From a virus: DNA of 64,000 bases. Positions 1,048-57,402 of this stretch are shown in pieces. Within the stretch, counting starts at the first letter, position 1. Each line of letters begins with the position of its first letter. Location of the stretch: positions 1-64,000 of IMG/VR virus record IMGVR_UViG_3300042876_000238; one strand, 5' to 3'. The position numbers and the translations under genes are program-made. The notes under the pieces are model-generated. The model was not told where the DNA came from. It made no database searches and was given only the letters and a program-made list of their open reading frames with translations.

Positions 1048-1302
1048 GTTTCGGGAAATTTTTGTGGTGGGGTTTTTACGTGTGCTTAGTGCGCACATGG
1101 TGGAGTTTTTGCGGGATACGGGGCCGAGGGACCTAAAGCGTACCCCCACCCCCCTCCCCCCGTGGCCCGGTACCCCGGTGGGCCGTCGTGCTTCGGTACA
1201 GGTGCGCCGCTGGCTTTCCCCACGCGCGGTATATGAGGGAAGCACACCGCAACCCTTACGCCGCACTGGCGTTACACCGGTGTAATTCATAGGAGCAATC
1301 AC
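1048..1302. other. Divergent intergenic control region
   Basis: Non-coding space between the leftward pair and the first rightward early gene. It holds a very C-rich tract (about 1143-1160), an imperfect GGCCC/GGGCC hairpin (1164-1184), a -10-like TATATG in GGTATATGAG around 1229-1238, and the palindrome at 1272-1285. A rightward early promoter is expected here, but I cannot point to a convincing -35/-10 pair. Confidence 0.45.
1272..1285. promoter_or_regulatory. Palindromic site P1 (TTACACCGGTGTAA)
   Basis: Perfect 14-bp palindrome ending 17 bases before the ATG at 1303 and just upstream of its AGGAG ribosome binding site. First of ten family members between 1272 and 13651. Confidence 0.75.
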
Positions 1303-1881
1303 ATGGCTAAGGCCAAGACGACACAGACCCCCGCAGTTGCCACGCTCACGCAGGCAAAGGCCGAGCGCATCGCGCGCATCTGGATCGCTGGTGACGCAGC
1401 GCTCGCGAAGGCGGGCGGCGAACTCGCTACGCGCATCGCGCAGGAAGCGTCCGCAGTGTTCGAGCGCAACGCGACGCCGGGCAAGCCGGACGCGGACCTC
1501 GTCACGAAGATCGTCGGCAAGTCGCGCGGCTGGAGCGCAGCGTCGCTGAACGTCCGCTCGTCGGAGATCCTCGCGATCATGCGCGCTCGCACCGGGCTGC
1601 CGAAGGGTGTCGCCGCGATCGAGAAGGCGTTTGCTGGTACGTGCCGCTGGAATGACGCGGTCAACGCGGCCCGAGCGATCAACGACGGCAAGGACCCCGT
1701 TCGCTTCGTGAAGGGCAAGCGCAAGGGCGCGGGCGAGGAGCCGAAGGACGCGGAAGCCGTGAAGAAGTCCATCGCGATCGCCGTGAAGAAGTGGCTGGAG
1801 TGGAGCGCGACGCCGCGTGCGCTCAAGACGTCGCTGCGCCAGATGTGCGGCGAGCACCGCATCAACATCGGCAAGGCGTAA
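1303..1881 (+). CDS. Early phage protein, function unknown (192 aa)
   Basis: First gene of the rightward early region, started by ATG behind a good AGGAG. The product is Ala/Lys/Arg-rich, highly basic and predicted helical, without membrane segments or a motif I can name. The gene is flanked on both sides by perfect copies of the TTACACCGGTGTAA palindrome (1272-1285 and 1888-1901), so it is probably under the same control as its neighbours. The basic, helical character would fit a DNA-binding protein. The family is not recognised. Confidence 0.7.
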   Translation: MAKAKTTQTPAVATLTQAKAERIARIWIAGDAALAKAGGELATRIAQEASAVFERNATPGKPDADLVTKIVGKSRGWSAASLNVRSSEILAIMRARTGLPKGVAAIEKAFAGTCRWNDAVNAARAINDGKDPVRFVKGKRKGAGEEPKDAEAVKKSIAIAVKKWLEWSATPRALKTSLRQMCGEHRINIGKA

Positions 1882-1887
1882 TCGCAA

Positions 1888-1901
1888 TTACACCGGTGTA
1901 A
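1888..1901. promoter_or_regulatory. Palindromic site P2 (TTACACCGGTGTAA)
   Basis: Perfect copy in the 40-base gap between the genes at 1303-1881 and 1922-2098. Confidence 0.75.
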
Positions 1902-1921
1902 CTCACCGAGGGAGAACGACG

Positions 1922-2098
1922 ATGCGAGTCGCACTGTTTGAGTTCGACGGCACGCTGGACGCGCAGGAGAAGATCCTGCGGGAACGCGTGGAGCGAAAGC
2001 GCAAGGGCTGGGATCGCCGCACCGCGGAGGATCACCAGCGCTTGCTCGATGTGCAGCGGGAGAAGGCCCGCCGCATGAAGCGCGAGGCGGGCCGCTAG
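1922..2098 (+). CDS. Small charged helical protein (58 aa)
   Basis: ATG at 1922 is chosen because GGGAGAA lies 7 bases upstream and a longer reading would run back through the palindrome into the previous gene. The product is a highly charged (Arg/Lys/Glu), probably single-helix protein with no recognised domain. A strong terminator follows at 2113-2145. Confidence 0.6.
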   Translation: MRVALFEFDGTLDAQEKILRERVERKRKGWDRRTAEDHQRLLDVQREKARRMKREAGR

Positions 2099-2112
2099 GC
2101 TCGTAGCACGTG

Positions 2113-2145
2113 GGGCCGGAGGGCGTTGAGCCTTCCGGCCCTTTT
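2113..2145 (+). terminator. Rho-independent terminator
   Basis: An 11-bp stem with one wobble pair (2113-2123 with 2131-2141), a 7-base loop, then TTTTGCTTT. It ends the first rightward unit. Confidence 0.8.
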
Positions 2146-2164
2146 GCTTTGCCCGCATGAGTCA

Positions 2165-2178
2165 TTACACCCGTGTAA
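2165..2178. promoter_or_regulatory. Palindromic site P3 (TTACACCCGTGTAA)
   Basis: One-base variant of the palindrome in non-coding DNA just after the terminator; flanking bases extend the symmetry to 16 bp (ATTACACCCGTGTAAT). Confidence 0.7.
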
Positions 2179-2310
2179 TCTCATATCACGATGTCTCAAA
2201 ATACCGTGTTACCAGATGTACATCATTCATACGTGTGCGTGGATCGGCGGGCTCTCGGGCCGAGGGGCCGTTATCATAGGCACGTACATTGGCGCGACGG
2301 CGAGGCTGGC

Positions 2311-2347
2311 AATGTGGATATGATGTTTTCGACAAAACCGTTGCAGC
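2311..2347 (+). repeat. Iteron-like repeat I1
   Basis: AATGTGGATATGATG (2311-2325), then 10 bases, then AACCGTTGCAG. Partial match to the full unit. Confidence 0.55.
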
Positions 2348-2385
2348 GCAAGGGTTCTACTATTCATTACCATCATATCCACATT
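2348..2385 (-). repeat. Iteron-like repeat I2 (inverted)
   Basis: On the minus strand this reads AATGTGGATATGATGGTAATGA, 7 bases, AACCCTTGCG: the same composite unit as I3, in opposite orientation. Arm 2371-2385 is the exact reverse complement of 2311-2325. Confidence 0.65.
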
Positions 2386-2477
2386 GTTTAGAGATACCCT
2401 GTGTTTTCAATCGCAGTCCGGGGCATGTGTGTCTTTGGGGGCTGAGTGAATGTTATAGGTTACTCGTCCGCAAAAGT

Positions 2478-2512
2478 GTGGATATGATGGTAATGACCTG
2501 AAAACCCTTGCG
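2478..2512 (+). repeat. Iteron-like repeat I3
   Basis: GTGGATATGATGGTAATGA (2478-2496), 6 bases, AACCCTTGCG. Best copy of the composite unit. Confidence 0.65.
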
Positions 2513-2542
2513 GCACTAAGGCACCTTGGCACATACTGCGCA

Positions 2543-2581
2543 GGATATGATGGAAATGACCTGTCAATATGATGGTAATGA
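2543..2581 (+). repeat. Iteron-like repeats I4 and I5 in tandem
   Basis: GGATATGATGGAAATGA (2543-2559) and AATATGATGGTAATGA (2566-2581), spaced about two helical turns apart and ending 9 bases before the ATG at 2591. Position over the start region suggests control of that gene or binding by its product. Confidence 0.6.
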
Positions 2582-2590
2582 GGGGGTAAG

Positions 2591-2947
2591 ATGCTCGAAC
2601 GCACCGCCAAATTCACTCCGAAACAGTTTCGCCTGCTCTGTGAGGCCCTTCGGCACCACGGCACGAAACTGCGCGCCGACCGCAATCATGAGGCACTTCG
2701 TGTGCTGACCATGTTCGTCCGCACCCTCCCAACGTGTGCGCCTTACGATGTGACCATCAGCACGCGCGAGTGGCCCATCGTCAGCCGGGCACTGCGGCCC
2801 GAGGGCATGAAGCCCACGCCGGGCTCGGACGCCGCCCGCTGGCTGGCGCTATACCAGTGGATGATCCTGCCACAGAACTTCTATGGCATGCGCTCGTTAT
2901 CATCCCGCACGCAGCGCGAACAGGACCGCAAGCTCCCCACGCTCTGA
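2591..2947 (+). CDS. Phage protein next to the repeat region (118 aa)
   Basis: ATG behind AGGGGG, directly after the last iteron-like repeat. The product is basic at its N-terminal half (many Arg, His, Lys), with no membrane segment and no motif I can name. Gene position suggests it could be the protein that binds the repeats, as origin-binding proteins often sit next to their iterons; that is inference only. It contains one CGTTATCAT 9-mer (2895-2903) and is followed without a gap by palindrome P4. Confidence 0.6.
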   Translation: MLERTAKFTPKQFRLLCEALRHHGTKLRADRNHEALRVLTMFVRTLPTCAPYDVTISTREWPIVSRALRPEGMKPTPGSDAARWLALYQWMILPQNFYGMRSLSSRTQREQDRKLPTL

Positions 2948-2961
2948 TTACACCCGTGTAA
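2948..2961. promoter_or_regulatory. Palindromic site P4 (TTACACCCGTGTAA)
   Basis: Begins on the base after the TGA of the gene at 2591-2947. Same one-base variant as P3, again with 16-bp extended symmetry. Confidence 0.7.
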
Positions 2962-2972
2962 TCCGACGCTGT

Positions 2973-3051
2973 ATCAGACAGCACCCTGTCTTCTCCTACG
3001 CTCCCGTCCTGCTCCTTCGGGGGCGCGGGGGCGGGCAGGGTGCTGCCTGAT
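2973..3051 (+). other. Long hairpin in the leader of the gene at 3082
   Basis: Arms 2973-2988 and 3036-3051 pair over 16 positions with a single G-T pair, enclosing a 47-base GC-rich loop. It lies between a stop codon and the next ribosome binding site, and there is no T-run after it. It could be a transcript-stabilising or attenuating structure in the mRNA, or a DNA-level inverted repeat. Confidence 0.5.
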
Positions 3052-3081
3052 GCAACGTGCATCGCACAGAAGGAGCAACCA

Positions 3082-3855
3082 ATGACTGACATCAAGATCA
3101 CCAACGAACTGTACCAGCACGTGCTGGGCGTGCTGCTGCGTACACACGGTACGCTGGAGCGGCAGATGAACGGCACCGCGCAGGACACCTACGAGGTGTG
3201 GGAGATGTGCGCCCAAGCGTACGACAAGCTCCATGCCTTGCAGCCCACGGTGCCGCAGGCCGAAGGGCAGCAGGGCACGAAGCGCTGGGGATGGGATCGG
3301 TCCACGCTCGAAGAGATCTTCTTGGCGATGGAAGAGGCGGGCGAGGAGTCGAACTCGTGGGCGGCACGGCTGCGCAAGCTGTTCGATGAGGTGCAGCACG
3401 AGACGAAGGGCAAGCAGATCGCTGGCAAGCTGCGTGCGCTGTCGTACGCATACAAGTACGACTCGAAGCCTGCGCGTACGTTGTGCGAGGCGGCCGACAT
3501 CGTCGAGTCGATGTCGATGGACACAGCCCAGTACAAGGCAGCCGGTAAGGCAGCCGTCGACTCGATCGCGCAGCGTGCGTTCATGCAGGAGGCTGAGGAA
3601 GCGGGCGTTATCATGTCGCACCCGGACGCAGCCGAGGCACAGCGCATCGGCGAACAGGTTGCGCAGAAACTGAACGCCACGCCAGTGCCAAAGACGCGTT
3701 GGTTCGTACGCATCATCTCACGCAAGCAGAATGCATTGATCCAGCAGATCGGTGCACGCGACTACGCTGACGCGAAGGCGATTTACACCGGTGTAATGGG
3801 CAAGCTCGACCTGTCGCGCTTCAAGGTGAAGCTGGTCAGCGAGGTCGAAGAGTGA
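3082..3855 (+). CDS. Phage protein, function unknown (257 aa)
   Basis: ATG at 3082 with AAGGAG nine bases upstream is preferred over a GTG at 3040, which lies within the hairpin arm. The product is mostly helical and mildly acidic in the first two thirds. Its last 60 residues look like a small alpha/beta domain with basic residues. No family is recognised. The palindrome P5 (3783-3796) is inside its coding sequence near the 3' end, and a CGTTATCAT 9-mer is at 3606-3614. Its TGA overlaps the GTG of the next gene. Confidence 0.65.
   Translation: MTDIKITNELYQHVLGVLLRTHGTLERQMNGTAQDTYEVWEMCAQAYDKLHALQPTVPQAEGQQGTKRWGWDRSTLEEIFLAMEEAGEESNSWAARLRKLFDEVQHETKGKQIAGKLRALSYAYKYDSKPARTLCEAADIVESMSMDTAQYKAAGKAAVDSIAQRAFMQEAEEAGVIMSHPDAAEAQRIGEQVAQKLNATPVPKTRWFVRIISRKQNALIQQIGARDYADAKAIYTGVMGKLDLSRFKVKLVSEVEE
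3783..3796. promoter_or_regulatory. Palindromic site P5 (TTACACCGGTGTAA), intragenic
   Basis: Perfect copy inside the 3' part of the gene at 3082-3855, where it encodes Tyr-Thr-Gly-Val. Confidence 0.7.
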
Positions 3856-3986
3856 ATAAGCTGCACCTGATCTTCGGCCTGTTGTTCAGCGCTGTCGGCA
3901 TCTGGGCCTACGATCACACAGGTATGGGATTCTCGATCTTCCTGATGATCACAGGCGCGGCCCACATTCACAGCATATGGAGGTGA
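3852..3986 (+). CDS. Membrane micro-protein, two segments (44 aa)
   Basis: GTG at 3852 overlaps the previous stop (GTGA), a junction type used throughout this phage. The 44-residue product has two hydrophobic stretches, about 5-19 and 26-39, separated by a short polar turn, so it is probably a small inner-membrane hairpin. It is too short for family assignment. One of five membrane micro-proteins in the window. Confidence 0.55.
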   Translation: MNKLHLIFGLLFSAVGIWAYDHTGMGFSIFLMITGAAHIHSIWR

Positions 3987-3988
3987 GC

Positions 3989-4363
3989 GTGATCCGCAAG
4001 CACATCTTCACCGTGCGCTGGGAACGCAGGGGATGGGAGGCCGTGCCGACGTTCGAGCGTTACACGTTCTGCGACTGGCCCGAAGACATGCCAGACAACG
4101 ACGCGCTGCCTGCGATCGGCGTACTCACCGGCCGGGACCCGCACGAGTACATGACGTCGCTCCTGCCACAGGACTGCAAGGAAGCGCTCTCCGTACTGGC
4201 AGGCATGGAGGTCCGTTGCCGCTACAGCAACGACACCAAGGGGCCGTACATCATCGACGACCCCGAGTCCCTGTTCGATGAGGATCTCCTGCTGATGGTG
4301 GTTGCACACGCATCGGACAAGGAGTTGGATGGCTATCACATGCGAAGGAGAAAGAGAGTATGA
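3989..4363 (+). CDS. Phage protein, function unknown (124 aa)
   Basis: GTG at 3989 is preferred because GGAGG lies 5 bases upstream; an ATG at 3977 has no ribosome binding site. The product has an acidic middle (Asp/Glu-rich around 'EDMPDNDA' and 'DDPESLFDED') and a basic C-terminal tail. No motif is recognised. It is coupled to the next gene by an ATGA overlap at 4360. Confidence 0.6.
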   Translation: MIRKHIFTVRWERRGWEAVPTFERYTFCDWPEDMPDNDALPAIGVLTGRDPHEYMTSLLPQDCKEALSVLAGMEVRCRYSNDTKGPYIIDDPESLFDEDLLLMVVAHASDKELDGYHMRRRKRV

Positions 4364-4821
4364 AGAAGCGCAAAGTTCCCCTCACACGAGGGGCGAAGAA
4401 GGCCGTGCAACAGGACATGTTCCCGGCACGCAAGAAGCTAGCCGAGGCGGCGCGCATCGGGCAGCTAGGTCCGCCTTCCAAGTCCCGCGACCCGAGCGAG
4501 TGGCCTGTCATCGCCTTGCAGGGCGAATACAAGCGGCTCGATAAGAAAATCACGGATCTGGATGCACGCGTGCAGAGTCTCGCCCATGCCGTCGAGTTGC
4601 TGGCCGAAGTCACGAAGCGTGCGGTACCACCGAGACCGGCGAAGGTCTGGTCGTCTGAAGAGTACATCCGTCTGAGTGGCGAGCATGACCTGATGCTGCG
4701 CGTGGATGGAGAGGTGGACTACGAAGTCCTGATGGATGTACACCGGTGTAGCTGGGATGAACTCAAGCTGGCACTCAGGCACATCGGCAAGGAGTGGGCA
4801 GATGAACAAAAGACTGTCTGA
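4360..4821 (+). CDS. Phage protein with central coiled coil (153 aa)
   Basis: Started by the ATG of an ATGA junction. The basic N-terminus is followed by a heptad-like stretch at about residues 55-85 (LDKKITDLDARVQSL...), then a charged C-terminal part. Function unknown. The imperfect palindrome P6 (4738-4751) lies in its coding sequence. Confidence 0.6.
   Translation: MKKRKVPLTRGAKKAVQQDMFPARKKLAEAARIGQLGPPSKSRDPSEWPVIALQGEYKRLDKKITDLDARVQSLAHAVELLAEVTKRAVPPRPAKVWSSEEYIRLSGEHDLMLRVDGEVDYEVLMDVHRCSWDELKLALRHIGKEWADEQKTV
4738..4751. promoter_or_regulatory. Palindromic site P6 (core TACACCGGTGTA), intragenic
   Basis: 12-bp core intact at 4739-4750 but the outer T:A pair is replaced by G and G. 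The least perfect member, inside the gene at 4360-4821. Confidence 0.5.
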
Positions 4822-4897
4822 CGCGATCGTTATCATCGCCTGTCTCGCCGCGTTCGCAGTGTTCGTAGTGATGTGGTGGATCGAACTCACTGATTGA
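4802..4897 (+). CDS. Membrane micro-protein, one segment (31 aa)
   Basis: ATG at 4802 with AAGGAG upstream, overlapping the end of the previous gene by 20 bases in another frame. The product is a charged N-terminus, one hydrophobic segment (about 8-26) and an acidic end. The CGTTATCAT 9-mer (4828-4836) lies inside it. Too short to classify. Confidence 0.5.
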   Translation: MNKRLSDAIVIIACLAAFAVFVVMWWIELTD

Positions 4898-4907
4898 AGG
4901 AGCAACA

Positions 4908-5288
4908 ATGAAACTGACACCTGAACAGGTTTCCCATGTCATGCATGGGCTCAACATACTGGCCCAGTCCGTCGGACCGAACACGGCCCGCGAGATCGAG
5001 GCGCTGCTCAACACCATCGAGACCAACGAGGTGCACCTGATGCGGCGCGGGCTGCTGGAAGACGTCAACGCGAAGTTCAATGAACTCTGCGTGCTGCACG
5101 ACAAGATGCGCGTGACCGTCAACACGTACATCGAGCACGTGCAGAGGGTGTGCACGCACCAGTTCTGGAAGCCCGACCCGAACGACAGGCATCGCGTCTA
5201 TCCACGCCGCATCAAGCTCGATAGCTGCCGCCTGTGTGGCAAGGCTGCCGAGCCCGTGACCGATACGTTGCGCGTCTCCAGTGACTGA
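4908..5288 (+). CDS. Phage protein with Cys cluster near the C-terminus (126 aa)
   Basis: ATG with GAAGGAG upstream. Helical N-terminal two thirds; the last 45 residues contain Cys-Thr-His and Cys-Arg-Leu-Cys-Gly separated by about 25 residues, a spacing compatible with a single zinc site. Function unknown. Ends 1 base before palindrome P7. Confidence 0.6.
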   Translation: MKLTPEQVSHVMHGLNILAQSVGPNTAREIEALLNTIETNEVHLMRRGLLEDVNAKFNELCVLHDKMRVTVNTYIEHVQRVCTHQFWKPDPNDRHRVYPRRIKLDSCRLCGKAAEPVTDTLRVSSD

Positions 5289-5835
5289 TTACACCGGTGT
5301 AAAGGTCGAGGAAGCCGTGCTCGTATGTCAGGGCAGGTATGTCGACCAGTTCGCCGACGACCGCAACTACACTGAAGAATTTCACTGGTACACCAACGTG
5401 TCACAACTGATCATTCCCGATACATCGATCGAACAGCCGAGCGACAGCTTCATTTGGTGTACGCCGATCCCGGCGCGTGACTGGAACACGCTCGTGGGGC
5501 TGGCAGTGCAGTTCAAGTGCGTCACTCCGAATGGAGTTCTGTACGTGCATCGCATCGGAGCCCGCAGGCAGCGGATCATCATCGTGCCGTGGCATCCCGC
5601 CGGTACGGACACGAAGGACTTGCATAGGGAGAGGGGCAAGGGACACTCGAAGGAGGAGATCGAGCAGGAGTGTGCATGGCTGCGCTTGATCAAGAACTTC
5701 CAGCATCCGATCTACGTGGTGCCGCACGGCGTCACGCTCACGACGAAAGAGATCATCCAGCGTTCGATGAACGTGTCGCCGTACCTGCTGCAGAGCCTCG
5801 ACTCACTGAAGGATGTGCCGGATGATCCATCCTAG
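5281..5835 (+). CDS. Phage protein, function unknown (184 aa)
   Basis: The open frame begins at GTG 5281, overlapping the previous stop; palindrome P7 then encodes residues 4-7 (Tyr-Thr-Gly-Val). A GTG at 5317 has a better ribosome binding site (GAGGAA) and could be the true start, which would leave the palindrome in the leader. The product is an alpha/beta protein without a recognised motif. Confidence 0.55.
   Translation: MTDYTGVKVEEAVLVCQGRYVDQFADDRNYTEEFHWYTNVSQLIIPDTSIEQPSDSFIWCTPIPARDWNTLVGLAVQFKCVTPNGVLYVHRIGARRQRIIIVPWHPAGTDTKDLHRERGKGHSKEEIEQECAWLRLIKNFQHPIYVVPHGVTLTTKEIIQRSMNVSPYLLQSLDSLKDVPDDPS
5289..5302. promoter_or_regulatory. Palindromic site P7 (TTACACCGGTGTAA)
   Basis: Perfect copy immediately after the stop at 5286-5288, at or just before the start of the next gene. 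Confidence 0.7.
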
Positions 5836-6235
5836 GAAGCGCAGCAAGGAGAAGTGGCACGACCTGAATATGAAGGATCTCACCGAAGAGGAGCGTGCGT
5901 GGGCTGCGATCTACACGCTCCGCTTCGGCATTGATCAATGGGCAAGGGGATTCTGCGAAGGAGAAGAAGACTTCTTCAATGAGATGTCGCTTGCGCTGTA
6001 CGGAGAAGTCAAAAGCCCAGCGGCCCATCAGGACAGGATTTGCTGTGCGATGGACGTCATCATCTGCGCATACAACCATAGAGATACGGAGGGTAGGAAC
6101 AATGGCAATACCGAAAGGAACGAAGAAGAACTTCGAGACCCTGCAGCTAGCAATGGCCGCAGGGCACGTGTGCGTGATGGAAGTGCTCGACGGCAAGACC
6201 GGCGAGGTGGTCGACGCGATCTGCATGATCAATAA
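5822..6235 (+). CDS. Early protein of the 'WA-x-Y-x-LRFG' paralog family (137 aa)
   Basis: ATG at 5822 with GAAGGA upstream, overlapping the previous stop. Residues about 28-63 (RAWAAIYTLRFG...) align with the proteins at 7044 and 7491, so this is the first of three paralogs. The last 45 codons overlap the gene at 6102-6356 and have the Arg/Gly/Asp-rich look of out-of-frame translation. The functional part may therefore end near residue 93, with a lost stop or frameshift. Function unknown. Confidence 0.5.
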   Translation: MIHPRKRSKEKWHDLNMKDLTEEERAWAAIYTLRFGIDQWARGFCEGEEDFFNEMSLALYGEVKSPAAHQDRICCAMDVIICAYNHRDTEGRNNGNTERNEEELRDPAASNGRRARVRDGSARRQDRRGGRRDLHDQ

Positions 6236-6356
6236 GGTCGACGACATGTACCAGATGGCTCCGATTGCGTTCATGCCGAGGGAGAATCCGTACGACCGGT
6301 TCTCGCCGCCGGACCCGAACAACCCGGAGATGTTCGCCACTGGGGAGAAGCACTGA
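6102..6356 (+). CDS. Small phage protein, function unknown (84 aa)
   Basis: ATG at 6102 with GTAGGAA upstream. Mostly beta/alpha in character, with a Pro-rich acidic C-terminus. No motif recognised. It overlaps the tail of the preceding gene by 134 bases and is joined to the next by a TGATG junction. Confidence 0.6.
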   Translation: MAIPKGTKKNFETLQLAMAAGHVCVMEVLDGKTGEVVDAICMINKVDDMYQMAPIAFMPRENPYDRFSPPDPNNPEMFATGEKH

Positions 6357-6760
6357 TGCCGTGGAATCAGAAGAACGCACGGTTCTATTGCGAGGTCTAC
6401 TCTGCGCGCAGGACAAAGGAGGTCATCCTGTCCGATGCGTACAAGGGGCTCGTTATCATCGCGGCAGGAGAGCAGGGCATGTTGCGCGTCACGCTGCGGG
6501 CTGACGGCATCGAGGAGAAGACCCGAACCGGTCCGCGTGGTGGCATCCACGTGGAGTCCAGACGGCATCTCGATAAGTTCATGGTCGAGTTCTGCCCGTG
6601 GCGCTCGTGCGAAGCGGAGGGCGACCCTGTCGTGATTGCTTCCGGCCCCTTGGACTTCGATCGCGTGAAGCACGGCGAGGCGATGGTGCGCTTCGACGAT
6701 CAGGCAATCGAGGTGTACCGGACGATGCGGGCGATCGAGATCATCAAGGAGACTTCCTGA
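6356..6760 (+). CDS. Phage protein, function unknown (134 aa)
   Basis: ATG overlapping the previous TGA. Alternating beta strands with many Arg/Glu and two Cys; no recognised motif. It contains a CGTTATCAT 9-mer (6451-6459) read here as Val-Ile-Ile. The next gene starts on its stop codon (TGATG). Confidence 0.6.
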   Translation: MPWNQKNARFYCEVYSARRTKEVILSDAYKGLVIIAAGEQGMLRVTLRADGIEEKTRTGPRGGIHVESRRHLDKFMVEFCPWRSCEAEGDPVVIASGPLDFDRVKHGEAMVRFDDQAIEVYRTMRAIEIIKETS

Positions 6761-7047
6761 TGCGCGCGTCACCGCACGGCTGGTACGGAGGGACGAGCGG
6801 AACTTCCGAGTCATCTCTCGTGTATCCGGACAAGCGCAAGGTCGGCCCTGTCCGGCCAAGCGCTTCGCCGTACACGGCCCGTGCTCGCACGATCAACGAG
6901 ATGAACTCTCACACGAGGTTCTATAAGTACTGCATCGTCGACCGCCACAACATCCCGATCTTCCTGTTCACGACGATCACTGAGGCTGAGTTCGTCGCCG
7001 AGAAGATCAATCTCAATATGGCGAAAGCCGTCCTCAGTGCGCCATGA
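6760..7047 (+). CDS. Early protein of the 'DRH' paralog family, copy 1 (95 aa)
   Basis: ATG at 6760 with AAGGAG 8 bases upstream. A Ser/Gly-rich N-terminal 50 residues precede a C-terminal segment with the pattern Tyr-x-x-x-Ile-Val-Asp-Arg-His, then hydrophobics and a helix. That segment is repeated in the protein at 7295-7498. Together with the next gene it forms a two-gene unit that occurs twice in tandem. Function unknown. Confidence 0.6.
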   Translation: MRASPHGWYGGTSGTSESSLVYPDKRKVGPVRPSASPYTARARTINEMNSHTRFYKYCIVDRHNIPIFLFTTITEAEFVAEKINLNMAKAVLSAP

Positions 7048-7328
7048 GACGAAAGCCAACCATCGTGATCAAGCAAGGGTTGGCCGAGTTCGATGATGAA
7101 GTGATCGAAGAATGGTGGGCGCAGTACTGCCTATGCTTCGGTCCAGACGCGTTCTATGGCAAGGCAGTGCCGGGTGAGTACGAGTTCTACGAGCGCATGG
7201 CGAAAGCCTTGGGCGTGTCACGCTGGGTAGCCCGGCAACTGCTGAAGCCGTTCGCCGGGCTGCTGCCAGACTCTTACGGGCACGAGCCGACATCATGCCA
7301 GACAAAGACGTTGCGACCTACCCGATGA
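7044..7328 (+). CDS. Early protein of the 'WWA-x-Y-x-L-x-FGPDA' paralog family, copy 1 (94 aa)
   Basis: ATGA junction with the previous gene. The motif EEWWAQYCLCFGPDAF lies about residues 20-35, followed by a Gly-Glu-x-Glu-Phe helix; the same arrangement is seen at 7491 and, more distantly, at 5822. No enzyme signature. Probably a small host-directed early protein; that is inference from location and size. Confidence 0.6.
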   Translation: MRRKPTIVIKQGLAEFDDEVIEEWWAQYCLCFGPDAFYGKAVPGEYEFYERMAKALGVSRWVARQLLKPFAGLLPDSYGHEPTSCQTKTLRPTR

Positions 7329-7498
7329 TCGCTAATATCCGTAAACGTGCCCCGTTCAAGGTCTGGGGATTCTGCAACGTGTACGACCTCATCGATCGGC
7401 ACGGGAACTTCGTCATCCTTGGTGTAAGCAAGAAGAGGGCAGAGGAGATCTGCGAACTCTGGAACACCGAGGCAGCAAAGGAGATTCTGCGTGGCTAA
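7295..7498 (+). CDS. Early protein of the 'DRH' paralog family, copy 2
   Basis: Similar to the C-terminal half of the protein at 6760: Tyr-x-Leu-Ile-Asp-Arg-His, a beta strand, then a helix with Glu/Trp/Asn. No start has a clear ribosome binding site: ATG 7295 gives 67 residues, while ATG 7325 forms an ATGA junction with the previous stop and gives 57. I regard 7325 as at least as likely. Function unknown. Confidence 0.55.
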   Translation: MPDKDVATYPMIANIRKRAPFKVWGFCNVYDLIDRHGNFVILGVSKKRAEEICELWNTEAAKEILRG

Positions 7499-7742
7499 AC
7501 ACACGTTACAGGAATGGTGGGCAATCTACTGCCTGCGCTTCGGCCCAGACGCACTGAACGATGTGTACGCGAAGGGGGAACGTGAGTTCCTGTTGGAAGT
7601 TGCCGACGATCTGGAAGTCCCGCCTCTCAGCGATCTCGGCCTGAGAGACTCAGCTAACCCCCGTGCAGGGCATCGTATCGCCGTCATTGCCTTGTTTTCT
7701 GATCTACGTATGAGGGAGAAAATAGCGGCCCGCAAGCCGTAA
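7491..7742 (+). CDS. Early protein of the 'WWA-x-Y-x-L-x-FGPDA' paralog family, copy 2 (83 aa)
   Basis: GTG at 7491 with AAAGGAG upstream and an 8-base overlap with the previous gene. Motif QEWWAIYCLRFGPDAL at about residues 7-22 matches the protein at 7044 almost position by position. Last gene of the small-gene string before the promoter at 7749. Confidence 0.6.
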   Translation: MAKHTLQEWWAIYCLRFGPDALNDVYAKGEREFLLEVADDLEVPPLSDLGLRDSANPRAGHRIAVIALFSDLRMREKIAARKP

Positions 7743-7748
7743 GACTTA

Positions 7749-7777
7749 TTGAGTTTGTGACACATGTTCGTTATCAT
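7749..7777 (+). promoter_or_regulatory. Sigma70-like promoter containing the CGTTATCAT 9-mer
   Basis: -35 TTGAGT (7749-7754), 17-base spacer, -10 TATCAT (7772-7777), which is the end of CGTTATCAT. Palindrome P8 starts 6 bases after the -10, over the expected start of transcription, an ideal position for repression. It drives the AAA+ ATPase gene at 7816. Confidence 0.6.
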
Positions 7778-7782
7778 GTCCA

Positions 7783-7796
7783 TTACACCGGTGTAA
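7783..7796. promoter_or_regulatory. Palindromic site P8 (TTACACCGGTGTAA)
   Basis: Perfect copy at +1 of the promoter at 7749-7777 and just before the GGAGGAG of the gene at 7816. Confidence 0.8.
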
Positions 7797-7815
7797 CCGG
7801 AGGAGCAAAGAAACT

Positions 7816-8874
7816 ATGAACCTGAAGGAAGCGAAGAACCTCATCAAGACCGTCTTCAAGACCCAGATCGAAACCGGCGTGCGGTTCGCCATCGAACTGT
7901 CGTCCGGCCCCGGCTTGGGCAAGTCCGAGGGTTGTGAACAGGTGGTCGACGAACTCAGCAAGGAGTTCGGCGAGCCCGTCGCGTTCATCCCCTACTTCCT
8001 CTCCACGCTCGAAGCCCCGGACGTCGGCGGCTTCAAGATCCCGACCAAGGACACCGACGGCACGCCGATCACGGTCTCCTCTCGCGCCCCGTGGATGCCC
8101 CGAGCGAACGCGCCGAAGTACGGCCTCATCCTGCTCGACGAGTTCCGACAGGCGTCCCACGATGTGCAGAAGCCCGCGGCCGAGTTGCTGCTCAACGGGC
8201 GGGTGGGTGAGTCGCAGTTGCCCATCACGTACTTCGTGTTGGCAGCGTCGAACCGGGAGAAGGATCGGTCAGGTGTGCAGCGCGAACTGGCGTTCATCGC
8301 CAACCGCCGCATGCTCATCACGGTCGACCCCAACCTCGACGCGTGGGTGGAGTGGGCGGAGCGCAAGAACATCCATCACGCTGCCATCTCGTTCGCCAAG
8401 TCGCATCCGGGCAAGGTGTTCCAGACGGAGATCCCGGACAAGCCGGGTCCCTTCTGCACTCCTCGCACGTTGGTGAAGACGTCGTACCTGATCGGCAAGC
8501 TCGACATGGCCTCGTTCACCGAGGCTGCGATGGGCTACATGGGTGAAGGCACGGCGGCCGAGTTCGTCGCGCACTTGCGGGTGGTCGATGAGTTGCCGGA
8601 CTACGAAGAGATCGTCGCTGCGCCCAACAAGGTGACGGTCCCGACGCGCCCGGACGCTTGCTACGCAGTAATGCAGATGATCGCCCATCGGGTCGACGGC
8701 CCGACGGCATCGGCTGCGTTCACCTACCTCAAGCGGCTGGGGCGTGAGTTCCAGATCGCGGGGCTGAAGGCGACGGTGCGGCGTTCGTCCGTACTGATGC
8801 AGACGCCTGAGTTCGGGGCGTGGATTCGCGAGAACAAGGACATCGTCCTCGCCGCGAACCTCGTGAAGAAGTGA
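7816..8874 (+). CDS. MoxR-type AAA+ ATPase (352 aa)
   Basis: ATP-driven remodelling protein. Walker A GPGLGKSE at residues 31-38, Walker B LILLDEF around 104-110 (Asp108, Glu109), and a sensor-1-like LAASNRE near residue 145; total length is typical of MoxR ATPases. These proteins usually act with a von Willebrand factor A (VWA) partner, and one is encoded three genes on (11035-12237). A strong ribosome binding site (GGAGGAG), a sigma70-like promoter and palindrome P8 lie upstream, so this starts its own controlled unit. Several phages carry a MoxR-VWA pair; the substrate here is unknown. Confidence 0.85.
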   Translation: MNLKEAKNLIKTVFKTQIETGVRFAIELSSGPGLGKSEGCEQVVDELSKEFGEPVAFIPYFLSTLEAPDVGGFKIPTKDTDGTPITVSSRAPWMPRANAPKYGLILLDEFRQASHDVQKPAAELLLNGRVGESQLPITYFVLAASNREKDRSGVQRELAFIANRRMLITVDPNLDAWVEWAERKNIHHAAISFAKSHPGKVFQTEIPDKPGPFCTPRTLVKTSYLIGKLDMASFTEAAMGYMGEGTAAEFVAHLRVVDELPDYEEIVAAPNKVTVPTRPDACYAVMQMIAHRVDGPTASAAFTYLKRLGREFQIAGLKATVRRSSVLMQTPEFGAWIRENKDIVLAANLVKK

Positions 8875-9011
8875 TCGGCAGCTTCACGAAGCTTTCCCAC
8901 ACTGTGCGGATGATGTTGTTCTGGGCACTCATGCTCATCAACATCATCCTGCTCAGTGCTGCCGGTTGGTTAGTTGTCAAATACGAGGAAGGAGACAAAG
9001 AACATGGCTAA
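8871..9011 (+). CDS. Membrane micro-protein (46 aa)
   Basis: GTG at 8871 in a GTGA junction with the ATPase gene. A polar N-terminus (about 12 residues), one long hydrophobic segment (about 13-35) and a charged C-terminus. Its position between the ATPase and the other members of the trio suggests a membrane anchor or effector for that complex, which is inference. It overlaps the next start by 8 bases. Confidence 0.55.
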   Translation: MIGSFTKLSHTVRMMLFWALMLINIILLSAAGWLVVKYEEGDKEHG

Positions 9012-9552
9012 GAAGAGAAAGGCTCAGTTCAAGACCCAGACGACGTCCATCGAGAGTGCCGTCAGCGACGCGTACTCCGGCATGGAGGAACTCAAGGACG
9101 AGTTGCAGAACTGGTACGACAACCTGCCCGAGAGTTTCCAGAACGGCTCGAAGGGCGATGCGTTGCAGAGCGCGATCGACCAGATCGACTGCGCGTCCGA
9201 GATCACGGTGCCCGACTGCCTGTGCAACGGCCCGGACTTGCCGGAGGTTTCCTACGACGAGTCGGTGAAGACCTCTCGTAGCGCGCGTAGGGATACTTGT
9301 GTGTCCATGCTGAATGGCGCAGCCGATGCCGCCCGCGACTACATCGACACGCTCAACGAGTTGGAGTTCGACGAGGACGGCAATCGCAAGCGCACACTCA
9401 CGGAGGGGGACGACGATGTCGAAGAAGACGGGTATCCGACGACCGAAGACGAGCGTGACTCGTGGGTCAGCGAGATCGAAGACTTTGCCAACGAGTGCGA
9501 GAACAACGTCGGCGAGTACGAAGCCGTCGAGTTCCCCGGAATGTACGGCTGA
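9004..9552 (+). CDS. Acidic phage protein, function unknown (182 aa)
   Basis: ATG at 9004 with GAAGGAGA upstream is preferred to an upstream ATG at 8974 inside the membrane gene. The basic N-terminal 10 residues are followed by a strongly acidic helical protein with a Cys-rich patch near residues 60-75 and a very acidic linker around 125-145. Not recognised. Embedded in the MoxR/VWA unit, so possibly part of that complex. Confidence 0.6.
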   Translation: MAKKRKAQFKTQTTSIESAVSDAYSGMEELKDELQNWYDNLPESFQNGSKGDALQSAIDQIDCASEITVPDCLCNGPDLPEVSYDESVKTSRSARRDTCVSMLNGAADAARDYIDTLNELEFDEDGNRKRTLTEGDDDVEEDGYPTTEDERDSWVSEIEDFANECENNVGEYEAVEFPGMYG

Positions 9553-9639
9553 TCTTCCGTACATCTGCGACAACTTCCTTGGCACGGCGCGTGACCCGCG
9601 CCGCTGCCACATCTGTCTCAACTTGAGAGAGGTACACAC

Positions 9640-11007
9640 ATGAGCGAAGAGTTTGACGAGATCCAAGACATCCTTGCAGGCATCCTTGGCGACAAGCCGA
9701 AAGCCCCGGCAGCGGCTCCGCCGCCGAAGGCGGCAGCGAGGGTGGCGACACCCGAGCCCGACGAGGACTTCCTCAATCTGGATGAGTTCACCCCGGCCCC
9801 GGTCGTTATCACGACGACGATCGACAAAAGCGGTGAGCGCAAGCACGCGCTGACGAGCGGCGTCCTGCCGAAGGGCATGGCACTGCCGGGCAGCGACGAG
9901 GACGTCATGTCCATCTTCGACAACCGAGACGACGACTACGGCTCCGACCCCACGGAAGACGCGCGAATCGAAGCAAGCCTCCCGAAGGGCGACGTCACGG
10001 TGGCGATCGACACGAGCGGGTCGGTCTCCGACGAGATGTCGAAGATGTTCGCGGACAGCGTCGAGCAGTCCCACATCAAGGTGCCAGTCCCGACGTTCAC
10101 TTCTGCAGACATGATGCAGTCGTTCGACATCCGCAACTTCGCTACGCTGGTGACGTTGCAGACGAACCGTTGGCACGCGAAGGTGAAGGACCGGCAGGCG
10201 TCGAAGGATGCGGCGAAGGCCAACTCTGCCGACGAGCGTGCGTTCGAGACCCGCAAGAAGTTGCTGGTCGGTGCTGACAGCATGTTGGTGGCGATCCACA
10301 AGGCGATCGACGCCGCACGCATCGAGCACTACGCGATGACCCTGCCGTGGTCGACGACTGGACTCGACGACACCGGGCGTCGGACGGGCGGTCGCCTCCT
10401 GATGAACACGCTGTTCTTCGAGTACACGCAGAAGATGGCGAAGTACCGGAAGGAGATGGAGGACGCGCTCAACGCGTTCGAGCCCGAGTATCCGAACCTG
10501 ATTGCCATTGCGAAGACCAAGCTGGGCAAGCGGTTCGATCCTCGTGAGTACCCGAACCCGTCGGCGATCCGTACGCACTTCAACCTGTCGTTCGACTTCC
10601 AGCCGATCCCCAAGGGCGAGGATTTCATGGGGCTGCCGAAACAGCAGTTGGACAAGCTGGCGCAGCACCTGAACAACCAGACCCAGACGATGCTGGAGAA
10701 CGCGATGCAGGAGAACTGGGTGCGGATGCGCGAGGTGATCGCAGCGATGGTCGAGCGGCTGTCGTCGCCCGACAAGCGGTTCCACTCCACGCTGGTGGAG
10801 AACGTGCGCGAAGCGGTGCGCCTGACTGCGCATCTCAACGCTACGAAGGACAAGCGCATCGAGGCGGTTCGCCAGTACGCCGACAAGCACCTGTGCCAGC
10901 ACGACGCCGAGGAACTGCGGAAGAACCCGACCCTGCGCGTGCAGGTTGCCGGGCATGCGCAGTCGGCGATCGACATGATGGACAAGACGGCCCTGAAGAA
11001 GCACTGA
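9640..11007 (+). CDS. Alpha-helical phage protein of the MoxR/VWA unit with an isolated MIDAS-like motif (455 aa)
   Basis: Pro/Ala-rich acidic N-terminus (1-60), then VTVAIDTSGSVSDEM (Asp124, Ser126, Ser128), which looks exactly like the first strand and metal-binding loop of a VWA domain. The rest of that fold is absent: from residue about 150 on the protein is a long helical domain with LQTNRWHAK, MTLPW and FEPEYPNLI segments. The helical part resembles a phage family often found beside MoxR ATPases (DUF3150-like, from memory). ATG with a weak GAGAGG upstream. Function unknown; probably an adaptor between the ATPase and the VWA protein. Confidence 0.65.
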   Translation: MSEEFDEIQDILAGILGDKPKAPAAAPPPKAAARVATPEPDEDFLNLDEFTPAPVVITTTIDKSGERKHALTSGVLPKGMALPGSDEDVMSIFDNRDDDYGSDPTEDARIEASLPKGDVTVAIDTSGSVSDEMSKMFADSVEQSHIKVPVPTFTSADMMQSFDIRNFATLVTLQTNRWHAKVKDRQASKDAAKANSADERAFETRKKLLVGADSMLVAIHKAIDAARIEHYAMTLPWSTTGLDDTGRRTGGRLLMNTLFFEYTQKMAKYRKEMEDALNAFEPEYPNLIAIAKTKLGKRFDPREYPNPSAIRTHFNLSFDFQPIPKGEDFMGLPKQQLDKLAQHLNNQTQTMLENAMQENWVRMREVIAAMVERLSSPDKRFHSTLVENVREAVRLTAHLNATKDKRIEAVRQYADKHLCQHDAEELRKNPTLRVQVAGHAQSAIDMMDKTALKKH

Positions 11008-11021
11008 TTACATCGGTGTAA
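11008..11021. promoter_or_regulatory. Palindromic site P9 (TTACATCGGTGTAA)
   Basis: One mismatch from the consensus; begins at the base after the TGA of the gene at 9640 and ends 13 bases before the next ATG. Confidence 0.6.
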
Positions 11022-11034
11022 TGGAGGTAGGAAG

Positions 11035-12237
11035 ATGACAGACTCTGTGAAGCTGACGACGTTGAAGACGGCCATGCTCCTGTATGTGCCGTTCTTCGCG
11101 TCACTGATGATCGACATTCTGGAGTTGAAGGTGGGCAAGTTCCCCGAGGTATTCGGGGGACACAAGCCCACGGCAGCGACGGATGGCAAGACGGTGTGGT
11201 TCGACGAGGACTTTCTCGACTCGTTGAAGCTGCCTGAAGCGGTTGCCCTGCTGTGTCACGAGATCGGGCATGTCATGTGGATGCACATGGCCCGAGGCAA
11301 GACGTATCAGGACACCGGCTTCGAGGGCGCGCCGTTCGATGCGAGCATCTGGAACATGGCGGGGGACTACATCATCAACGATATGTTGGTGGTATCGCAG
11401 ATCGGTGACTTGCCGAAGGGCGGCTTGCACGATCCGAGGCGTTTCCCGCACACGATGTCCGCTGAGGATGTGTACCGTGAGTTGATCAAGAATCCGCCGC
11501 AAGGCATGGGCGGCGGTACACCTGACCAGCACGGCAACACGGGTGTCACTCTCGACAAGCACATCCTGTCCCCGCAGGCAGTGACGGATCAGGAGATGCG
11601 CCGGGCGGTGAAGACGGCGAGCGAAGCAGCCAAGGCGATGGGCTCGATGCCTGCCGCACTGGAGCGTTTCGTCAACGAACTCATGAATCCGCAGGTGCCG
11701 TGGCAGGAAAAGCTGCGCTTCCACGTGGCTCGAAACATCGGCCGAGACTGCAAGACATGGCGCTCGCCCAACCGGCGTAGACTCGTGCTGCAGAAGATCT
11801 ACATGCCGAGTTACGTGGGGTATCAGGCAGGTGAAGTGGTCGTCGCTATCGACACATCCGGGTCGATCGGCCAGAAGGAACTCGATACGTTCCTGTCGGA
11901 ACTGTCGGGCATCCTCGACGACTGCAAGCCCGAGCGGGTGTGGGTGCTGGCGATCGACGCCGCGGTGGCGTCGGTTACTGAACTCGAATCCGGAGCGGAC
12001 ATCGCTTCCAATCCACCTGCGCTGAAGGGTGGCGGCGGTACGTCGTTCATTCCGGCGTTCGAGTGGTGCCAAGAGAACGGCATCGAGCCCGCGTCGCTCA
12101 TCTACTTCACCGACATGATGGGTAGCTTCCCGAAGGAAGCTCCATCGTATCCGGTGATCTGGTGTGCGACGTACGACTCTCCGCCGCCGTGGGGCGAGTA
12201 CATCCGCATCAACGTGGGAGGTCGCGATGATCGTTAA
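11035..12237 (+). CDS. Metallopeptidase-like plus VWA domain protein (DUF2201 type, 400 aa)
   Basis: The N-terminal domain carries a zinc-binding HEIGH motif (His75, Glu76, His79) within LLCHEIGHVMWMH, as in the putative metallopeptidase domain of DUF2201 proteins. The C-terminal domain is VWA-like, with the complete MIDAS motif Asp273-x-Ser275-x-Ser277 in VVVAIDTSGSIG, a later GGGGTSF and TDMMGSFP. This is the known partner architecture of MoxR ATPases (compare 7816-8874). ATG with GGAGGTAGGAAG upstream, behind P9. A role in protein processing or metal insertion, or in attacking host protein complexes, is conceivable but not shown. Confidence 0.8.
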   Translation: MTDSVKLTTLKTAMLLYVPFFASLMIDILELKVGKFPEVFGGHKPTAATDGKTVWFDEDFLDSLKLPEAVALLCHEIGHVMWMHMARGKTYQDTGFEGAPFDASIWNMAGDYIINDMLVVSQIGDLPKGGLHDPRRFPHTMSAEDVYRELIKNPPQGMGGGTPDQHGNTGVTLDKHILSPQAVTDQEMRRAVKTASEAAKAMGSMPAALERFVNELMNPQVPWQEKLRFHVARNIGRDCKTWRSPNRRRLVLQKIYMPSYVGYQAGEVVVAIDTSGSIGQKELDTFLSELSGILDDCKPERVWVLAIDAAVASVTELESGADIASNPPALKGGGGTSFIPAFEWCQENGIEPASLIYFTDMMGSFPKEAPSYPVIWCATYDSPPPWGEYIRINVGGRDDR

Positions 12238-12841
12238 TCCGGGCGCTGATGCCATGCGCGCAATCATCAAGCGAGATCCGACTACAGTCCTGTCCCGGCT
12301 TATCGATCGATTGGAGCTAACGGTTCCGTTCCCGATAGATATCAGAGCGTTCCACCTCTCGCTGTTCCCGGAACAGTTCATCGCTGCAGTGCACGAGCAT
12401 GCAGCCTACTCGCAGAACATGCGTGCGGTGTTGACGACGTCACATCAGGTGACTGTGCACTTAGGGTACGACCGCTTCATTAGACTGTCTCTGGAGTATG
12501 GCTCTCTGTCGCCGAAAGAGGAATTTCTGCAGTGTATGAACCATCCACGGCAGGAGGAGCTAGTCGAATGGCACGAAAAAGCGACGACCTACAACGTCAT
12601 ACTGACGGAGATGCAGGAGACGATGGCCGCCGTCCTGCTCGACTCACACGCGTTGGGAGCTTGGCCCGAGCTAGCACATGCTGTCGGCATCACGAGACTG
12701 CCCAGAAGCAGTACCGCTGCGTTACAGCGGCATCTGGAGGGTACTCAGGGCAAGGCGAAGCTGGATGCGTTGCTGGCCCAAGCCTCCCTCCTGCCAGACA
12801 TCAGGGCCCCACACGCGTGGGTCGGGCTGATAGGCAGGTGA
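12227..12841 (+). CDS. Phage protein, function unknown (204 aa)
   Basis: ATG at 12227 with GGGAGG upstream, overlapping the VWA gene by 11 bases. Largely helical, without membrane segments or a recognised motif. From here to 13519 codons such as CTA, ATA and TAG-bordered rare codons are more frequent and the GC content is lower than in flanking genes, hinting at a different origin. Confidence 0.6.
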   Translation: MIVNPGADAMRAIIKRDPTTVLSRLIDRLELTVPFPIDIRAFHLSLFPEQFIAAVHEHAAYSQNMRAVLTTSHQVTVHLGYDRFIRLSLEYGSLSPKEEFLQCMNHPRQEELVEWHEKATTYNVILTEMQETMAAVLLDSHALGAWPELAHAVGITRLPRSSTAALQRHLEGTQGKAKLDALLAQASLLPDIRAPHAWVGLIGR

Positions 12842-12844
12842 CAT

Positions 12845-13519
12845 ATGGGGCGTAGACGATATGGCCCTCGCGTCAAACAAGTCCTCACCAAGATCGATCG
12901 TGACGTCAACCGGCAAGTAGTCCTAAGTCGTGTATACAAACTCATGCGACACCGGCTGTTTGCGATGACGCCGTTTCCTTTCCCCTATCAGGAGGTGTTT
13001 GATTTCGTGTGGGGAGAGGAGCGGCTGGCACACATCGTCGCACTACCACGGGACTTATTCAGTTACGATCGTAGGTTTCGGTTTGACTACAAGCTATCTG
13101 CTGGCGAAGCTAGAAAGGTTACGCTGACCTTTGACGAGCCCGTAATAGTTCTGCGCAACTTCCAAGTCCTATCAGGAGATCATCTACCTGACTCTATGAA
13201 GACAAGCATCGAGGACTGGGTAGTACGGCGCAGGATGGCGACACACGACTATGGAGTAGTTAACGAGGCCGTGAAGAAGTTACTGGAGACTGCGCGCACA
13301 TACCGGCAGTTGAAAGGCTTCTGGCCCACGTTCAGTAAGTTCCTAGAGCCGGGGGCGCGTTACGAGTTCGATAGCGTAGCTCCGACCAAGCCATCGACGT
13401 TACTTCTCAACACGTGGGCACAAAGCACAGTGTTAACTCCTGACGAGGTCGATACGATGTTGAGCGAGGCGATGCTGCTCGAAGACTTGCCGATGGATGA
13501 GTCGGCGACGTACGACTAA
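12845..13519 (+). CDS. Phage protein, function unknown (224 aa)
   Basis: ATG three bases after the previous stop, with AGGTGA upstream. Basic N-terminal 30 residues, then a mixed alpha/beta protein with an acidic C-terminus. No recognised motif. Shares the lower-GC codon use of its neighbour at 12227. Last gene before the strong terminator at 13540. Confidence 0.6.
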   Translation: MGRRRYGPRVKQVLTKIDRDVNRQVVLSRVYKLMRHRLFAMTPFPFPYQEVFDFVWGEERLAHIVALPRDLFSYDRRFRFDYKLSAGEARKVTLTFDEPVIVLRNFQVLSGDHLPDSMKTSIEDWVVRRRMATHDYGVVNEAVKKLLETARTYRQLKGFWPTFSKFLEPGARYEFDSVAPTKPSTLLLNTWAQSTVLTPDEVDTMLSEAMLLEDLPMDESATYD

Positions 13520-13539
13520 CACGTAGATCGAAACCTACT

Positions 13540-13577
13540 GGCCCCCGGCGCTTCGGCGTCGGGGGCCTTTCTTTTTG
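13540..13577 (+). terminator. Strong rho-independent terminator
   Basis: 12-bp GC-rich stem (13540-13551 with 13556-13567, one T-G type mismatch) capped by a TTCG tetraloop and followed by TTTCTTTTT. It separates the accessory region from the replication region. Confidence 0.9.
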
Positions 13578-13603
13578 CCCAAAATCGGTCCTGTTGACTT
13601 CGG

Positions 13604-13612
13604 CGTTATCAT
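13604..13612 (+). promoter_or_regulatory. CGTTATCAT 9-mer upstream of the replication genes
   Basis: Lies between the terminator and the gene at 13665, 25 bases before palindrome P10. No -35-like hexamer sits 16-18 bases upstream, so if it is a promoter it is not a plain sigma70 one. Confidence 0.4.
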
Positions 13613-13637
13613 GGGCCACTATTGCGATAAGTCGGTT

Positions 13638-13651
13638 TTACACCGGTGTAA
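13638..13651. promoter_or_regulatory. Palindromic site P10 (TTACACCGGTGTAA)
   Basis: Perfect copy 13 bases before the ATG at 13665; the last one found going rightward. Confidence 0.75.
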
Positions 13652-13664: not shown

Positions 13665-13928
13665 ATGGCAGTCAAGACGAGTAACCCGAAGATGGGCCGC
13701 CCAGTGACCAACAAGCATAAGGTCGGCACTCGCCTCTGGGACAAGTGGAGCAACACGGCAAAGCGGGTCTTCAACAAGACGTTCGAGCGCATGCTGCGCA
13801 ACCAGTCGGTGTTCATGCATCCAAAGGCACCGCCGATGTCGAAGGTGCACTGGCGCACCGTGGCATGGAACGCAGCGGTCATCGCTGCCTGCGCCGCAGA
13901 CGACGTCATTTTCGTGGTGCGCAAGTGA
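13665..13928 (+). CDS. Basic phage protein, function unknown (87 aa)
   Basis: ATG with GAGGTGA upstream, first gene of the replication unit. Lys/Arg-rich N-terminal half and a hydrophobic stretch (about 66-84), which may be a buried helix rather than a membrane segment. Not recognised. Confidence 0.6.
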   Translation: MAVKTSNPKMGRPVTNKHKVGTRLWDKWSNTAKRVFNKTFERMLRNQSVFMHPKAPPMSKVHWRTVAWNAAVIAACAADDVIFVVRK

Positions 13929-16267: not shown

Positions 16268-16494
16268 GCAAAGACAACGAACATTTACCGTCGCCCCGCA
16301 ATAGCGGCAAGGCGTGGACAAAAGACGAAGACGAAATCGTCATTCAGTTAATGAAGGATGGTAAGTCGTTGTTCGAGATTGCAGGGGAATTGGAACGTAC
16401 CCCCGGTGCCGTCGTCGCTCGCGTGGAACATCACATCATGTTGATTGCGCAGTTCGAGAGGTTCCGCAAGATCATCAGCACGGGGGTCATGTAA
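16264..16494 (+). CDS. Myb/SANT-like helix-turn-helix DNA-binding protein (76 aa)
   Basis: GTG at 16264, overlapping the polymerase stop. AWTKDEDEIVIQLMKDG followed by SLFEIAGELERTPGAVVARV is a typical three-helix Myb/SANT or GcrA-like DNA-binding unit (about residues 16-55). Possible regulator or accessory replication protein; it is one of two evident DNA-binding regulators in the window. Confidence 0.65.
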   Translation: MSKDNEHLPSPRNSGKAWTKDEDEIVIQLMKDGKSLFEIAGELERTPGAVVARVEHHIMLIAQFERFRKIISTGVM

Positions 16495-24145: not shown

Positions 24146-24349
24146 CTAGTGGACCGTGTACCCGTACTGGGCAAGTTCGCACATGGCATCCCACGCCCGC
24201 TGCGTGCAGCGAAGTGTCTCCATGCGCAGTGAAAGTTCCGGATGTCGTTTCAGGTATTTCTCGACGATCGCTTTGTTGGTGGCGTAGTACCTTGGCTCGC
24301 CTGTGCTGGACTCGACGACGTAGAGTTCAAGCTCGTGCTCATTCGTCAT
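24146..24349 (-). CDS. Small phage protein, function unknown (67 aa)
   Basis: ATG at 24349 overlaps the end of the giant virion gene by 11 bases; GAGGGAG lies about 12 bases upstream. Acidic start, then helices with Cys and aromatic residues. No motif recognised. Confidence 0.55.
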   Translation of the reverse strand: MTNEHELELYVVESSTGEPRYYATNKAIVEKYLKRHPELSLRMETLRCTQRAWDAMCELAQYGYTVH

Positions 24350-57279: not shown

Positions 57280-57402
57280 CGGCTTGAATCCGAACTCGGC
57301 CAGTATCTGCGCGTCTATCTGCGCAGCCATCTGCGCCGACAGGTAGCTGAGATACTCCTCCCTGAAGTCTTTTTCTTCCGGGTTAGCGCGCTGCCACGGG
57401 CT
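57196..57402 (-). pseudogene. Orphan coding segment after the glycosyltransferase gene, no start codon
   Basis: Continuing the leftward gene at 57402-58127 in the -1 frame gives 67 further residues with a strongly protein-like, helical pattern (FREEYLSYLSAQMAAQIDAQI...). Nothing encodes it on the plus strand except the terminase tail up to 57279. There is no ATG, GTG or TTG near its beginning; the first ATG (57330) would leave 44 residues. It is either a frameshifted extension of the glycosyltransferase, or the remains of a truncated gene, or a small gene with an unusual start. Confidence 0.4.

Follow-up and report, generated by a model that had tools for sequence, protein, structure and literature searches.

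The DNA stretch analysed here (the window; 64,000 nucleotides of IMG/VR record IMGVR_UViG_3300042876_000238) belongs to a tailed phage with portal, head, internal virion protein and terminase genes. Its first 14 kb, where a single plus-strand block of genes leads up to the DNA polymerase gene (14393), contain ten copies of the 14-letter palindrome TTACACCGGTGTAA: six perfect, three with one change and one with two. A preliminary description of the sequence had reported ten copies, all between 1.2 and 13.7 kb, and had proposed a count against shuffled sequence. A mismatch search recovered the same ten coordinates, and allowing up to three mismatches over the 64 kb retrieved these sites only (mean of 0.77 and maximum of 3 in 100 dinucleotide shuffles). 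Early confinement also held: the sites span 1272-13651 with none outside, and no further copy with up to two mismatches was found in the whole 64,256-base record. The chance of ten out of ten sites falling within this 19% of the sequence is about 7e-8, and the term 'genome-wide' used earlier for the system is wrong for this phage.

The first palindrome (1272-1285, perfect) lies in the leader of the first early gene, 17 bases before its ATG at 1303, and a second perfect copy (1888-1901) lies 6 bases past the stop codon of that gene (1303-1881), ahead of the next ribosome binding site. The one-change form TTACACCCGTGTAA is found at 2165-2178, after a terminator-like hairpin (2112-2142), and at 2948-2961. 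Two copies are intragenic: a perfect one at 3783-3796, close to the 3' end of gene 3082-3855, and the two-change form GTACACCGGTGTAG at 4738-4751 within gene 4360-4821. The perfect copy at 5289-5302 runs into the beginning of the ORF that follows. Further downstream, a perfect copy (7783-7796) precedes the ATPase gene 7816-8874 (phrog_1297) by 19 bases, the one-change form TTACATCGGTGTAA (11008-11021) precedes the metallopeptidase/vWA-like gene 11035-12237 (phrog_1314) by 13 bases, and the last, perfect copy (13638-13651) stands 13 bases before gene 13665-13928, with a terminator-like hairpin at 13540-13567. Seven of the ten sites are intergenic, compared with 16% expected. A start codon follows 13-20 bases past the end of sites 1272, 1888, 7783, 11008 and 13638, and sites 2948, 5289 and 11008 are immediately 3' of a stop codon, in agreement with the earlier remark that most copies stand before ribosome binding sites or after stops. 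One copy had also been said to cover the start point of a good promoter; a consensus promoter, TTGAGT-N17-TATCAT (7749-7777), is present at site 7783, but such matches are no commoner than in shuffles.

The early region contains other elements. A conserved leader lies ahead of it at 1160-1240 on the plus strand, with GTGGCCCGGTACCCCGGTG and GGCCCGGTACCCCGGTG, then CTTTCC..CGCG.TATATGAG, from an alignment of 14 leaders. In each of these 14 genomes it stands ahead of the first gene, and in most of them a palindrome is found in or near the leader, upstream or downstream of the TATATGAG-like element. The leader is probably the early promoter region, although an RHH target or a packaging site might be considered as alternatives to an early promoter. 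Iteron-like repeats GGATATGATGG(T/A)AATGAC occupy 2310-2590, between sites 2165 and 2948, with an inverted pair at about 2310-2390; they form a possible replication origin. A directional element, CGTTATCAT/C, occurs nine times on the plus strand (2269, 2895, 3606, 4828, 6451, 7769, 9804, 13604 and 17618) and never on the other strand of the window phage.

Palindromes of related phages

The named cousins, Rhizobium phage RHph_TM3_14A and Pseudomonas phage Rollin, are distant. A primase search identified 12 and then more metagenomic relatives, to a total of 32 loci with weak ones included; single-protein searches with 9640-11007 and 11035-12237 did not find relatives. The ATPase and metallopeptidase/vWA-like genes flank 9640-11007, and this trio is conserved in the relatives. 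The word TTACACCGGTGTAA was absent from every relative checked. The exact palindrome had 60 single matches in 2.9 million viral contigs, never repeated within a contig and none in the relatives found later, which looks like chance.

The relatives were then searched in an unbiased way for inverted repeats that recur. Almost every one with a covered early region has its own, different dispersed palindrome there, with 3-13 sites each compared with 0-1.4 in shuffled genomes. The palindrome is TCACACANTGTGTGA in contigs G001 and G002 (and, with variants, in G021), ACACACANTGTGTGT in G008 and G012, TTAACAGNCTGTTAA in G004 and TTARCAGNCTGYTAA in G022, TTACTCANTGAGTAA in G007, TCACACAATTGTGTGA in G009, CCACACAN(N)TGTGTGG in G013, TCACACGNNCGTGTGA in G014, TTACACANTGTGTAA in G016, TTACACAGCTGTGTAA in G017 and G018, TTGCTAGNCTAGCAA in G019, TTACACAGNCTGTGTAA in G020, and TTACAACNGTTGTAA in G026. 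Where the record is 55 kb or longer, all but two of the 97 sites (95 of 97) are found no more than 15 kb upstream of the DNA polymerase gene.

The places of the sites are conserved as well, although the word differs between phages. The counts of position are based on our own simple gene predictions and on landmark intervals picked after viewing the site table, so their P values are only descriptive: 92 of 140 sites are outside genes or at gene edges (about 15% expected), and a site occurs before the ATPase gene in 6 of 15 contigs (1.1 expected), before the vWA-type gene in 5 of 15 (1.1 expected), 100-450 bases inside the 9640-type gene in 11 of 15 (3.5 expected) and before the 13665-type gene in 8 of 10 (2.4 expected). 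The window phage shares the positions at 7783, 11008 and 13638 and has no site inside its 9640-type gene, the intragenic position that the family keeps most often. A large group of sites ends 9-21 bases ahead of a start codon. The preliminary description had taken a lack of conservation in relatives as an argument against its reading; the sequence of the sites is indeed not conserved, the word being absent, but the system is, with each relative's own palindrome at kept positions.

RHph_TM3_14A (W01) carries 34 gapped palindromes, TTACC-N4-7-GGTAA, across its whole genome compared with 0.2 expected, and one copy coincides with the presumed start point of the early leader promoter. A homologue of the 1303-1881 protein was not detectable in this phage, so dispersed palindromes may be older than the 1303-1881 family or may have arisen twice.

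Other repeated words were also noticed in the relatives. CTAACAA-type words are strongly over-represented on both strands of the whole G002 genome, and in G007 too. The relatives' version of the directional element, (A/C)(A/G)YTATCAY, is strongly biased to the early transcription strand (14:0 in G002, 13:0 in G020 and 13:1 in G016) and often lies inside genes in differing reading phases.

The first early gene as candidate regulator

The first early gene (1303-1881, plus strand), bracketed by sites 1272 and 1888, encodes a 192-residue protein that is predicted to be all-alpha and is our candidate for the cognate regulator. It has no match in Pfam or PHROGs, and was missed in the preliminary description because it matches no known family. 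The AlphaFold model shows nine helices (pLDDT 89) and has no structural match at E<=0.001 in the PDB or among viral models. No recognisable DNA-binding domain is present, and a PDB sequence search returned only weak, unrelated chains. The protein represents a new family, predicted to be all-alpha.

An iterated profile search located members in 14 contigs, always in the corresponding position and nested in the palindrome cluster; the copies of G008 and G012 are identical, and in several relatives a site lies within the gene itself. In a fifteenth contig, G019, an equivalent gene is assigned by position; its profile score is borderline (E=0.1), and its model, of low confidence, has a comparable helix run. 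No member was found on the G001 contig, which has sites and contains gaps, and a named-phage search with one family member gave no match.

Divergence of this gene tracks divergence of the palindrome. After correction for backbone divergence, the partial Mantel r was 0.61 (P=0.001), and 1303-1881 ranked first among 31 families. The partial r was 0.53 without G019 and 0.30 (P=0.08) without G004, G019 and G022, so the covariation rests largely on those three contigs. By primase, SNF2 helicase and terminase, only one pair of contigs is closer than G019 and G022; yet their palindromes differ, and their first genes are 18% identical. G004 and G022 have a common palindrome and the second most similar regulators. 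From these comparisons, regulator and sites look to have changed together among G019, G022 and G004.

Mode of action and competing readings

We consider that the palindromes are probably dispersed operators at which a regulator of the early region, encoded by the phage and controlling its own gene, would bind; this is most likely the 1303-1881 product, and the sites would act as stoperator-like roadblocks. Early transcription would begin at the conserved leader, so that the regulator is made first. The product would bind the dyad, probably as a dimer; as it accumulates, it would occupy the site in the leader and those next to or within its own gene, giving autoregulation, and also the remaining sites scattered to just before the DNA polymerase gene. 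Bound regulator would lower or stop early transcription, chiefly as an obstacle to RNA polymerase during elongation. A roadblock is the simplest mechanism, because the majority of the sites fall within genes or between the genes of one operon, at a distance from promoters. No other motif stands at a fixed distance from the sites, which means that they are not promoter parts. Early expression would thereby be shut off, or the phage might possibly enter a silent state resembling immunity. Searches for tyrosine integrase (PF00589), serine integrase (PF00239), ParA (PF13614) and ParB_N (PF02195) found none in 14 records, some incomplete, and no close prophage was found in a scan of 84,980 species genomes, where matches were mostly MAG fragments with one distant homologue on an isolate scaffold. 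Lytic early shut-off is thus at least as likely as lysogenic immunity, although absence from partly incomplete records is no proof of virulence.

Several other binders were weighed against the first-gene product. The preliminary description had named two, the RHH protein of 58 residues (61609-61785, minus strand) and a Myb-like protein (16264-16494). The latter was found in the window phage only and, being unique to it, cannot explain a family-wide system. The RHH assignment was confirmed (Pfam RHH_1, E=4e-6), and the protein is widespread: it is encoded in all 14 contigs with the 1303-1881 family, divergently and just outside the early region, and palindromes are typical targets of RHH proteins. 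The sites could then be its operators and the first gene merely a regulated target. We regard this as quite unlikely, given that the predicted contact ribbon R-x-H-x-(I/M), which we take from comparison with CopG, is invariant while the palindromes differ greatly between phages, and that RHH divergence does not follow the palindrome (partial r 0.08). The first-gene product appears the better candidate on these comparisons, and both the RHH and Myb-like proteins are disfavoured. It is very unlikely that each phage is instead matched to a regulator of its own bacterial host. Different palindromes might be expected in phages with possibly different hosts, but a host protein fits poorly with sites that covary and swap with a phage gene and that are strictly confined to the early region before the polymerase.

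The sites might also work in a different manner. A role as RNA hairpins in early mRNA, whether in its processing, in the control of translation or as promoters of hairpin type read by a virion RNA polymerase, would suit the many sites that end 9-21 bases ahead of start codons, and the profile of a virion RNA polymerase is matched, in its N-terminal part, by a giant virion-side protein. The best stretch of the match, however, spans only positions 230-432 of 3406, the giant protein does not covary with the palindromes when intact ORFs are used, and mismatched arm pairs (9 GU, 13 AC and 26 other) show no G-U excess. The sites therefore most likely act as DNA dyads, and we find RNA hairpins very unlikely. 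Activation or organisation of DNA (looping, compaction or anchoring) by the same palindrome-binding regulator, in place of an elongation roadblock, is unlikely; many sites per genome suit bridging, and sites are found both upstream and downstream of the leader promoter element, but no promoter element stands at a fixed distance beside them and ParA and ParB_N domains are absent.

The giant protein was also a rejected candidate in the covariation analysis: this 3253-residue product (24339-34100, minus strand) scored 0.44 at first and -0.01 with intact ORFs. Its C-terminal part is DarB-like antirestriction (phrog_10089), with Pfam LPD39, in addition to the short match to the N-terminal part of the virion RNA polymerase profile.

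Known systems of dispersed sites

A small number of temperate phages are known to maintain the prophage by means of dispersed stop sites. The likeness to stoperators suggested in the preliminary description gains support from the dispersed, early-only and mostly intergenic placing of the sites, their turnover throughout the family and the covarying gene. In mycobacteriophage L5 (cluster A), the sites are 13-bp, asymmetric and transcription-oriented, number more than 20 and occur genome-wide, and the repressor of these temperate phages binds as a monomer with an HTH (PMC6550527, PMC9283540). Both systems have many dispersed sites for a phage protein (as we infer for the window phage), several at short gene junctions and one at the regulator's own promoter, and in both the motif and the regulator diverge together between relatives. 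The sites described here differ in being palindromes of 14-17 bp, 3-13 per record and early-only. The all-alpha candidate had no match to the L5/TipsytheTRex repressor (HTH plus stoperator domain) in the PDB sequence search, and lysogeny genes (integrase, parABS) were not found in 14 records. In directionality, the CGTTATCAT/C element is closer to L5 stoperators than the palindromes are.

Streptomyces phage phiC31 has inverted repeats of about 17 bp scattered in its early region, many near start codons; its repressor binds them and controls itself. Dispersed early inverted repeats with a self-controlling phage repressor (a predicted one in the window phage) are the shared features, but phiC31 is temperate with an integrase, and its repressor is much larger than the 1303-1881 product. 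ParB/parS and KorB also use palindromic sites in several copies. This idea, raised in the preliminary description as well, does not agree with the lack of ParA and ParB_N in the 14 records or with sites that occur only in the early gene block and end before the replication genes. A Photobacterium plasmid with a portal relative and ParA was set aside, as only its portal is shown to be related. Within the RHH (MetJ/Arc) repressor class, the window phage has a member, but its predicted ribbon residues do not vary with the operator. In Bacillus phage SPbeta, the 15-bp element SPBRE at intergenic regions across the genome is bound by MrpR, a protein of tyrosine-recombinase fold that maintains the prophage, and the SPBRE sites are at promoters (PMC10516654). 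The common trait is a repeated intergenic element with one phage protein as its (here predicted) binder; the difference lies in the absence of PF00589 from 14 records and in an all-alpha model with no structural match. The window system would work like those of L5, phiC31 and SPBRE/MrpR, but site symmetry or protein places it outside the L5 and MrpR families.

About 18 diverse phages or fragments of phages, none of them showing lysogeny genes, share a similar layout here, and their regulator family resembles no known fold. We tentatively propose that a new all-alpha DNA-binding protein and palindromic roadblock operators shut off early genes during lytic growth in phages without recognisable lysogeny genes, and that the protein and whole sets of about ten sites switch specificity jointly, even among close relatives, with the places of the sites unchanged. 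Because the same places bear a different word in almost every relative, the phages are well suited to comparing how the specificity of a regulator and of its many scattered sites shifts in concert, and to reading the DNA-recognition code of a new protein family.

Outside the early region, seven tandem copies of the 9-base unit GCAGACGCA were found at 49130-49195 on the minus strand. Glycosyltransferase and methyltransferase-like genes lie near the terminase gene (57402-61061, minus strand), possibly for surface or DNA modification.
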